This document shows, in pieces, positions 13,345 through 20,693 of a stretch of DNA of 40,801 nt. The stretch is from positions 1 through 40,801 of the forward strand of contig JAHLFN010000083.1 of assembly GCA_018883725.1 (NCBI GenBank). Reading direction: 5' to 3'. The stretch is from Candidatus Fusobacterium pullicola. GTDB lineage: Bacteria; Fusobacteriota; Fusobacteriia; Fusobacteriales; Fusobacteriaceae. Below the pieces are notes generated by a model, which saw only the letters and a list, made by a program, of their open reading frames with translations, made no database searches and was not told where the DNA came from. The position numbers were made by a program, and so were the translations under genes. Numbering within the stretch: the first letter of the stretch is position 1; the number at the start of each line of letters is the position of its first letter.

Positions 13345-14034
13345 ATGGAAACTTTTAAACTTTTTAGTAATGAGCATTTTGTCTTAATTTTTTCAAATAT
13401 TATATTTTTTATATTTTTACTCTTTATTGCTAACTTTTTTGACAAAAGATATTTTGCAAAAATTACAGCAATCGTAATATTTATTCTTAAATTAGCTGAA
13501 TTAAGCTATAGACATCTATACAATAATGAAGAAATTTTTGAGCTTTTACCCCTTCATCTTTGTAATATCACTTTAATTTTTGTTATAATTATGATGTTAA
13601 GTGGTTCAAAATCTCTATTTCAATTATGTTTTTATTGGAGTGTTGGAGCAATCTTTGCCGTTGCTACCCCAGATGTAAAATACTCTTTTCCAAATTTTAT
13701 GACAGTAAGTTTTTTCATCACACATTTTTATATTCTTTTTGCTGTTGCTTATTTCTATCTATATTTTAGTTTTAGACCGGCTATATGGGGGTATTTCACA
13801 GCATTTTTTACTATTAATATTATATGCTTGGGTGTTTATTTCTTAAATGTACATCTTGGAACAAATTATTTATATGTCAACAGAGTTCCTAGTTTTTCTT
13901 CACCTCTAAACTACTTTGGTGAATGGCCTTATTATATTATTGTAGTAGAATTGATATATATTATACTTACTTATTTACTATACCTTCCATTTAGAAGTAG
14001 AGCAGTAAAGTTTGGAAAAACTAAATTTTACTAA
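13345..14034 (+). CDS. YwaF/TIGR02206-type integral membrane protein
   Basis: This 229-residue protein has about six hydrophobic segments (starting near 12, 38, 70, 97, 122 and 198) and the LPLHLCNI motif near residue 68, which marks the TIGR02206/YwaF family of membrane proteins. Its function is unknown; it acts in the cytoplasmic membrane. GAGGAGAG precedes the ATG. The start comes 13 bases after the RNase H stop, and a clear terminator follows, so the two genes form one short plus-strand operon. No functional link between the two is evident. Confidence 0.78.
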   Translation: METFKLFSNEHFVLIFSNIIFFIFLLFIANFFDKRYFAKITAIVIFILKLAELSYRHLYNNEEIFELLPLHLCNITLIFVIIMMLSGSKSLFQLCFYWSVGAIFAVATPDVKYSFPNFMTVSFFITHFYILFAVAYFYLYFSFRPAIWGYFTAFFTINIICLGVYFLNVHLGTNYLYVNRVPSFSSPLNYFGEWPYYIIVVELIYIILTYLLYLPFRSRAVKFGKTKFY

Positions 14035-14255: not shown

Positions 14256-15197
14256 ATGATTCTAATCAAAGAAACTTTAAAAAAACTTCCTGTTGCATTT
14301 ACAGGTTTAGCTTTAGGAATATCTGGAGTGAGTGGGGCTTTAGCTGTAATATTAAATCCAGTTGCCTTATATATAGGTAATTTTATTTCTCTACTATTAT
14401 TATTACCTATTATAATAAAAAATATTCTACATTTTGAAACTTTTAAAGAGGAATTAAAACACCCTACACTAGGAAGTTTTATTCCAACTTTAGATATGGC
14501 TCTTATGAATTTTTCTGTATTGCTATATGTATTTTCTCCTATTTTAGGAAAATCTCTATGGCTTCTATGTATAGCTCTACACTTTATATTTGCCGTATCT
14601 TTTATCTACCATAGATTCAACTCTTGGAATTTACACCATATGGTTCCAAGTTGGTTTGTTCCCCCTATTGGAATAGTTGTTGCTTGTGTCGATTCTACAT
14701 CTATGAATATGCCAACTTTAGCACATACTCTTTTCTATATAGGATTCTTTTTCTATATTATAATGCTTCCATTTATGTTATATAGAATTATCTTTGTAGA
14801 AAGAATTGATGATGCTAGATTACCTACATTTGCTATAATGGCAGCTCCACCTAACCTTTGTCTAGCTGGATATTTAGTGGCTTTTAATAATCCTAATCCT
14901 GCAATTATAAATTTTCTTTTCCCATTAGGATTATTTATGACTGCCCTTATCTATATAGCTATGTTTAAAATTTTTAGATTGAGTTTTACTCCAGTATATG
15001 CTTCATTTACTTTCCCTTTAGCTATTAGCTCTACTGCTATACTAAAATATTCACTATATATTAAGCAATTTGATTTAGCTAGAGGAGAGTTTTGGTATAT
15101 TTTTTCTACAGTAGCTACTACCTTTGCAACTCTACTAATAACTTGGATATTTATTAAAATGTTAATATTTGTCAATAAAAACATAATAAATTCATAA
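14256..15197 (+). CDS. TDT-family transporter (TehA/SLAC1-like)
   Basis: This 313-residue protein has about ten membrane helices and fits the tellurite-resistance/dicarboxylate transporter family. Family features are the opening PVAFTGLALGISGVSGAL, HPTLGSFIPTLDMALMNF near residue 69, VPSWFVPPIGIVVACV near 129 and PLAISSTA near 251. Members move anions such as dicarboxylates, sulfite or chloride across the cytoplasmic membrane; which one applies here cannot be told from sequence. AGGAGGG is 6 bases before the ATG. It is a single-gene unit with its own promoter and a terminator that faces the lemA cluster. Confidence 0.85.
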   Translation: MILIKETLKKLPVAFTGLALGISGVSGALAVILNPVALYIGNFISLLLLLPIIIKNILHFETFKEELKHPTLGSFIPTLDMALMNFSVLLYVFSPILGKSLWLLCIALHFIFAVSFIYHRFNSWNLHHMVPSWFVPPIGIVVACVDSTSMNMPTLAHTLFYIGFFFYIIMLPFMLYRIIFVERIDDARLPTFAIMAAPPNLCLAGYLVAFNNPNPAIINFLFPLGLFMTALIYIAMFKIFRLSFTPVYASFTFPLAISSTAILKYSLYIKQFDLARGEFWYIFSTVATTFATLLITWIFIKMLIFVNKNIINS

Positions 15198-15203
15198 ATA
15201 TAA

Positions 15204-15250
15204 AAGAAGAAAATCTTACTTAACTCTTGTAAAATTTTCTTCTTTTTTTA
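15204..15250. terminator. Terminator shared by the TDT gene and the lemA cluster
   Basis: Perfect 11-base arms 15204-15214 and 15234-15244 are followed on the plus strand by TTTTTTT. On the minus strand the hairpin follows the 50-codon ORF stop and is trailed by a shorter T-rich stretch, so it can serve both converging units. Confidence 0.85.
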
Positions 15251-15256
15251 CTATTA

Positions 15257-15409
15257 TTAAATTATTCCTTGTCCATACTGATAATATAGGTATCCTGTAA
15301 CCAATAAAACAAACCCTATTTTTAACATCAGACTAAAATTTTTATATAAAACAAAACATAGTATTATTACTACTAATACAGATATAATCGTCGTATTATC
15401 TAAATTCAC
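15257..15409 (-). CDS. Small 50-residue membrane protein downstream of lemA
   Basis: This short frame starts with GTG at 15409 and ends with TAA at 15257. AAGGAGAG stands about 4 bases before the GTG and overlaps the region just after the lemA stop, so translation can be coupled to lemA. The product has two hydrophobic stretches (about residues 7-21 and 31-43) joined by a short KNFSLMLK turn, and ends YLYYQYGQGII. This gives a likely two-helix membrane protein. I do not recognise a family. The good ribosome site, the position between lemA and the shared terminator, and the absence of any other use for this stretch support it as a real gene. Confidence 0.65.
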   Translation of the reverse strand: MNLDNTTIISVLVVIILCFVLYKNFSLMLKIGFVLLVTGYLYYQYGQGII

Positions 15410-15421
15410 TTTTCTCTCCTT

Positions 15422-15973
15422 CTAAAATTTTACCTTTGGAACCTCTCTAACTTCAGCTTCAACTTTAAATAATGGTTCCTCTTTAAAATTAAATATTCCA
15501 GCAAAAATATTTCCTGGTATCATTCTAATTGCTTGGTTATAAGCTGTTACAGTATCATTGTAAAATTGACGTGCAAAACCTATCTTATTCTCTATATCTT
15601 TAAGTTGATTTTGTAAGTCCATAAAATTAGCATTTGCCTTTAACTCTGGATAACTCTCAGTTACCATCATAAGTCTACTCAGTACACTTCCTAATTCACC
15701 ACTAGCCTTTATCTTCTCATCTATAGTACCAGCCGTTGTATAGTGAGTTCTTGCAGCTATAACTCTCTCTAATGTCTCTTTTTCATGACTTGCATATCCC
15801 TTTACTACCTCTACAAGATTAGGTATAAGATCAAATCTTTTTTGAAGTTGTACATCTATCTGACTCCAAGAGTTTTTTACTCTCTCTTGCAATTTTACAA
15901 ATTTATTTTGATATACTATCCCCATTAAAATTAATAACACTATTAAAACTAAAATTACTATTATAGTTACCAT
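15422..15973 (-). CDS. lemA: LemA family membrane protein
   Basis: LemA proteins have one N-terminal membrane helix and a coiled, mostly helical domain; their biochemical role is not settled. Here residues 2-22 are the membrane helix, and RVKNSWSQIDVQLQKRFDLIPNL in part, LKANANFMDLQNQL, IENKIGFARQFYNDTVTAYN and PGNIFAGIFNF segments are the family signatures. Length (183 aa) is typical. AGGAGGA lies before the ATG. It follows a DUF2207 gene by 22 bases; LemA and DUF2207 or TPM-domain proteins often occur together, so they may act together at the envelope. Confidence 0.95.
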   Translation of the reverse strand: MVTIIVILVLIVLLILMGIVYQNKFVKLQERVKNSWSQIDVQLQKRFDLIPNLVEVVKGYASHEKETLERVIAARTHYTTAGTIDEKIKASGELGSVLSRLMMVTESYPELKANANFMDLQNQLKDIENKIGFARQFYNDTVTAYNQAIRMIPGNIFAGIFNFKEEPLFKVEAEVREVPKVKF

Positions 15974-19814: not shown

Positions 19815-20693
19815 CTAATCTTTCTTTAGATTAATATCTATTTTTGGATTTTTTATGCTTAAATCCATTTGTGGGAATGGAATTTCAACATTTACTCCAT
19901 CTAAAGCCTTTTTAATATTATTTAAAGTTTGTTTATACACTGTCCAATAGTGATCGTTTGTAGTCCATCCTTTCAATGCTATATTTATAGAGCTATCTCC
20001 ATAAGACTCTACATGTGAATATACATCTGGATCCTTTAATACAAGTGGATTACTTCTTAACATCTCTTCTAGAGCTTTTCTTGCTATATCTATATCCGCA
20101 TCATAAGCTATACCTATTATAAATTTTAATCTTCTAGTTGGTGTCTTTGTATAGTTGATTATCTTATTTGATATTATTATTCCATTTGGTATAACTATTA
20201 AATCGTTGTTATGTGCTCTTAAAGTCGTTGAAAAAATATCTATATCATAAATATATCCTTCTTCTTCATCTATATTTACCTCATCTCCTACTTTATACAC
20301 TTTAAAGATTAAAATAATTATTCCACCAGCAAAGTTAGATAGGTTATCTTTTAAAGCAAGACCAACACCTATTCCCATTGTTCCAAAAAATGCTAATAAA
20401 CTACTCTCCTTAACTCCCATTATAAGTAAACAAATAGTTATCAATAAAGCATGTAATCCTATATTTAATATAGATCTTATAAAACTTTTTAAAGATTTAT
20501 CTACTACAATTTCCTCTTTTTTCTTTTTTAAACTAAATAGTGGTGTAATCTTTTTTATTGTCTTTATTACTATATAATATAGGAAGATACAAAATACTAA
20601 TTTTAAAGCAAAAAATATTAATTCTACCGTAAAGTTTACAAAAATATTTTTATCGGCTAATTTTAAAACAACTTCATTTAAAAATTTTTCCAT
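19815..20693 (-). CDS. mscS: Small-conductance mechanosensitive channel (MscS family)
   Basis: This inner-membrane channel opens under membrane tension to release solutes during osmotic downshock. Three membrane helices (about 22-45, 75-93, 98-130) are followed by the beta domain and the C-terminal alpha-beta domain. The pore helix shows the Gly/Ala packing pattern (GTMGIGVGLALKDNLSNFAGG), and KVGDEV and VIPNG are conserved family motifs. Length (292 aa) is normal for MscS. It is the first gene of the run mscS-nuclease-M32-DUF2207-lemA-small ORF. An extended -10 promoter lies just upstream. Confidence 0.96.
   Translation of the reverse strand: MEKFLNEVVLKLADKNIFVNFTVELIFFALKLVFCIFLYYIVIKTIKKITPLFSLKKKKEEIVVDKSLKSFIRSILNIGLHALLITICLLIMGVKESSLLAFFGTMGIGVGLALKDNLSNFAGGIIILIFKVYKVGDEVNIDEEEGYIYDIDIFSTTLRAHNNDLIVIPNGIIISNKIINYTKTPTRRLKFIIGIAYDADIDIARKALEEMLRSNPLVLKDPDVYSHVESYGDSSINIALKGWTTNDHYWTVYKQTLNNIKKALDGVNVEIPFPQMDLSIKNPKIDINLKKD

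Follow-up and report, generated by a model that had tools for sequence, protein, structure and literature searches.

Does the short stretch of DNA behind lemA in a Fusobacterium contig hold a gene, and would the product of such a gene belong to the LemA/DUF2207 envelope module beside which it is encoded? Within the window (i.e. the whole analysed stretch of 40,801 nucleotides from Candidatus Fusobacterium pullicola, genome G000) the minus strand reads, in order, through the genes of an MscS-type channel (19815-20693), a staphylococcal-nuclease-like protein (SNase, PF00565; 19327..19797; an operon neighbour retained genus-wide), an M32 carboxypeptidase (PF02074; 17825..19315), a DUF2207 membrane protein (Pfam matches PF09972 and PF20990; 15996..17825) and LemA (PF04011, E 2.5e-63; 15422..15973), and ends in a frame for a small, putative membrane protein (15257..15409).

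Position and signals of the frame behind lemA

The initial annotation had described a GTG-started, hydrophobic frame of 50 codons directly after lemA and, behind it, a terminator, and we recovered both. The frame (delimited from the sequence, the list of open reading frames, homologues and dN/dS) lies on the minus strand, as does lemA, the plus-strand translation of the same interval containing many stops. Its GTG (15409-15407) stands 12 nt past the lemA stop (lemA ends at 15422), its stop is TAA, and its 50-codon product reads MNLDNTTIISVLVVIILCFVLYKNFSLMLKIGFVLLVTGYLYYQYGQGII. The ribosome site AAGGAGAG (15414..15421, minus strand) begins right after the lemA stop and is placed 4 nt 5' of the GTG. 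On the 3' side, folding revealed an A/T-rich hairpin terminator (15202..15246, minus strand; -18.3 kcal/mol, z -5.75 against 200 shuffles), which was missed by a simple G+C-based terminator scan because of its A/T richness; it folds on the plus strand too, and probably also serves a SLAC1/TehA-like transporter gene (14256-15197) that converges on the small gene from the opposite strand. Elsewhere in the window, positions 13345-14034 (+) encode a TMEM164-family membrane protein (PF14808, E 5.6e-43), the family being named after an animal protein.

A small gene of this sort is easily missed. When the 224-nt post-lemA region was shuffled 5000 times with its dinucleotides preserved, a frame of at least 50 codons whose start lay no more than 40 nt from the lemA stop arose 16 times, and once together with the core of a ribosome site; as these figures refer to one site picked after the fact, conservation weighs more. 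Promoter-like sites in the region were not in excess (24 vs 27.0 expected), and the minus strand had none in the gap that separates lemA from the small frame. We consider that the small gene probably forms the last cistron of an SNase-M32-DUF2207-lemA transcript, that it would be translated from its own ribosome site (with probable help from translational coupling at the lemA stop), and that the transcript would end at the hairpin just 3' of it. A read-through of the lemA stop, yielding a longer LemA, was considered as well: the register fits in the window, and the candidate was rejected on account of a second in-frame stop between the two frames in the related genome G018.

Coding constraint within Fusobacterium

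Of 12 genomes searched in the genus, counting that of the window, four (G000, G020, G018 and G022) encode homologues of the small protein, with identities to the window protein of 98% (G020), 67% (G018) and 44-45% (G022; match E 3.7e-10). The initial annotation had named conservation of the frame and its ribosome site in other Fusobacterium genomes as a check, and absence from close relatives as evidence against it. The outcome was divided: G020, G018 and G022 keep the frame (with ribosome sites ahead of the G018 and G022 homologues whose sequences differ from AAGGAGAG), and G019 lacks it. In G018 and G022, inspection of the sequence places a hairpin with a T run immediately 3' of the homologue.

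Between species the frame stays intact despite 35-57 DNA changes, which fall mainly at codon positions 3 and 1 (e.g. 14, 4 and 18 differences at positions 1, 2 and 3 for G000-G018). The three species pairs gave dN/dS values of 0.23 (G000-G018), 0.43 (G000-G022) and 0.14 (G018-G022), and neutral simulations (20,000 runs each) remained free of stops with as few amino-acid changes in 0.92%, 2.7% and 0.09% of the runs, respectively, a significance that is to be read as moderate, given the non-independence of the pairs and a dS close to saturation. Both the dN/dS values and the simulations indicate purifying selection on the small-protein sequence. We predict the frame to be a translated gene because codon-level constraint, ribosome sites and a hairpin after each copy coincide, and regard it as very probably protein-coding. 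The opposite reading, of an untranslated 3' sequence that is open by chance and conserved through shared ancestry or RNA structure, would agree with the mere 50 codons, with the GTG or TTG start codons in three of the four members and with the narrow distribution; it is highly improbable in view of the codon positions at which the frame absorbs its changes, of its persistence in G022 beside a different upstream gene, and of the lack of any significant Rfam match for the stretch.

The predicted protein gene evolves faster than its neighbours: identities to the window are 67% / 44% for the small protein vs 87% / 79% for M32 and 89% for LemA. Family searches yielded nothing above cut-off in Pfam (best E 0.92 for the window protein) or PHROGs (best 0.12 for the window protein, 0.076 for any member), no match in NCBIfam, and no PADLOC family fitting the window protein (0.048 for one homologue). 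The locus adds to Fusobacterium a very probable small protein that no profile family covers. In the literature searched, titles and abstract openings contained nothing on Fusobacterium small proteins or ribosome profiling and nothing joining LemA with DUF2207, and titles contained nothing on Fusobacterium mortiferum LemA.

Presence without lemA and DUF2207, and absence beside them

Two genomes separate the small gene from its neighbours. In G022 it follows the M32 gene immediately (19 nt downstream), DUF2207 and lemA being absent from that place; elsewhere in that genome, on other contigs and each with other neighbours, lie one gene for a DUF2207 protein and one for a divergent LemA. In G019, which is 99% identical to G018 in both LemA and M32, lemA and DUF2207 are intact, the small gene is absent, and DNA similarity between the two genomes stops at the lemA stop. 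Across the family, the small gene follows three (G000, G020 and G018) of the 48 lemA copies examined (out of 51 LemA matches; G034:C20 and two short fragments from G031 and G029 were left out). Hence the small gene neither accompanies lemA and DUF2207 throughout nor is confined to loci that hold them. Six-frame profile scans of about 1.5 kb after lemA in G019, G021 and G023-G028 returned only noise in the search for small-gene remnants (best E 0.21, in G027).

The operon tail after SNase and M32 is fluid: G019, G021 and G024-G027 carry DUF2207 and lemA with no small gene, G023 and G028 have M32-lemA without an intervening DUF2207, and the sequence downstream of the operon differs among G000, G018, G019 and G022. 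As a separate observation, the M32 gene of G026 (G026:C1:271436-272873, L116) appears to be broken by several stops and frame changes, while the flanking SNase (before) and DUF2207 (after) genes are open. An M32 tree (from which a filter removed the broken G026 gene and the additional copies in G023 and G028, the second G022 copy being retained) places G022, G000/G020 and the G018/G019 group side by side and requires three changes of the small-gene presence label, the placement of G022 beside the others depending on a poorly supported fork. One gain followed by later losses fits this tree. Most simply, the small gene would have arisen in an ancestor shared by the G022/G018/G000 group, after which DUF2207 and lemA may have been lost at the locus in one lineage (the small gene staying at the operon end) and the small gene itself in another.

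These patterns bear directly on the module role suggested by the initial annotation, of which one part stands, namely a placement suited to co-transcription and translational coupling with lemA. On this reading the peptide would assist the LemA/DUF2207 envelope module as an accessory subunit, its translation coupled to that of lemA and its membrane partner being LemA or DUF2207, as its position directly after lemA in G000, G020 and G018 might imply; G022, moreover, still holds DUF2207 and a divergent LemA elsewhere, and a link in trans is possible there. The module role is nonetheless weakened because G022 keeps the small gene without these neighbours at the locus and G019 keeps a nearly identical lemA without the small gene, and 45 of the 48 examined lemA copies likewise do without it. 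We consider the accessory-subunit role unlikely, and an obligatory one disfavoured. One would naturally suppose that any gene coupled to lemA must serve the LemA/DUF2207 module, and the presence/absence pattern corrects this.

As its presence varies independently of lemA, the small gene probably rides along as an accessory passenger and does not belong to the core of the module. Our preferred explanation, held with moderate confidence, is that of a true small gene which ends the SNase-M32-DUF2207-lemA operon and is not obligatory to the LemA/DUF2207 module. Because it comes and goes independently of lemA and DUF2207, its product can be described, at the level of sequence comparison, as a membrane protein that is narrowly distributed, fast-evolving and seemingly dispensable, and whose gene closes an SNase-M32-(DUF2207)-(lemA) operon. 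No long-standing question is opened by it; it is an ordinary orphan small protein, predicted from sequence.

Topology, candidate function and possibly related peptides in a second genus

The product is, as our best guess, a 50-residue integral membrane peptide, in which a Lys-x6-Lys segment would lie between two hydrophobic stretches. Its initial description as a two-helix protein agrees with hydropathy, which delineates two hydrophobic stretches flanking Lys23-Lys30, and disagrees with AlphaFold2 (run on 2 sequences only), which modelled one continuous helix over residues 3-46 (mean pLDDT 87.3). A helix of that span is too long for a membrane; since the modelled helix would overrun it, both a single helix and a hairpin remain candidates. 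By the positive-inside rule, the Lys-x6-Lys segment would face the cytoplasm. As to function, the most likely reading is that the helices would pack together or against some larger protein of the membrane and so tune that protein.

The small size, the hydrophobicity, the one long helix modelled by AlphaFold2 and the patchy distribution would also suit a toxin-like or stress peptide acting on the membrane itself with no protein partner. We regard this as quite improbable, for the gene is the presumed last cistron of a housekeeping-like operon and has a good ribosome site, the promoter scan and Rfam disclosed no antisense RNA or antitoxin gene, and the PADLOC families do not fit the window's protein. 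Hydrophobic orphan proteins of small size, encoded at the ends of operons, form a general kind, and the window protein resembles them in its approximately 50 residues, its one or two predicted membrane helices and its lack of a domain match, while matching no named family among them.

A profile search of 98 genomes of the phylum recovered the four genus members strongly, followed by 47-residue proteins in G031 and G029 (E 0.0014 and 0.003), values which with this first profile fall among background matches to other membrane segments. Adding these two proteins to the profile brought in G032 and G035, and with the resulting eight-member profile (alignment A6) the set was closed at 8 of the 98 genomes, with the best 70 candidates scored in many genomes, so that a miss is possible; further matches (E 7e-4 to 0.02) were partial, within longer proteins or interrupted by stops, and were taken as background. 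Weak matches in a frame of 155-160 aa, which we take to be signal peptidase II between ileS and glyQ, were set aside as probably unrelated to the small gene. A search of genome contigs with the small-gene profile returned Fusobacterium mortiferum An814 only (apparently the same as G020), and no relatives appeared in viral contigs, with either profile, or in plasmid records. The first alignment (A1), in which, as in A2, the G018 row was one codon out of register (carrying an additional leading residue and lacking its final one; corrected in A3 and A6), underlies the first phylum, genome-contig, viral, PHROGs, PADLOC and remnant searches as well as the hhalign comparison given below.

The additional candidate members belong to a second genus (g5), where four of the seven genomes (G029, G031, G032 and G035) carry them as hydrophobic genes of 47-53 aa with a ribosome site, located ahead of the gene for a MatE transporter (L090, L091, L092 and L093, at about 1490-1640). 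This set, taken as 47-49 aa in the comparison, resembles the window protein in length and in the lysines flanking a short linker (34% identity over 35 ungapped residues), and differs from it in its neighbours, which are MatE (PF01554) on one side and a gene for a divergent M3 peptidase on the other. Profile-profile comparison by hhalign gave a probability of 89.4, E 2e-6 and a score of 30.5 (vs 24.6 for the best of 400 column shuffles), and common descent of the two sets is likely on these grounds. A further step, which we consider doubtful, would be that the peptides of both genera constitute one unnamed family of small membrane regulators, lodged on unrelated envelope and transport operons and tuning a co-expressed larger membrane protein.

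In the same genus we also observed, in G032, a conserved frame of 45 aa that closes on several consecutive Arg residues and resembles a leader peptide (L142 1713-1903), with similar 45-aa frames at L086 2226-2363 and L143 1812-1949, the flanking genes being presumably aspS and argS. The L142 frame lies inside a match to 6S RNA (34.8 bits, the gathering score being 46.4; E 1.5e-5) and is probably an RNA.
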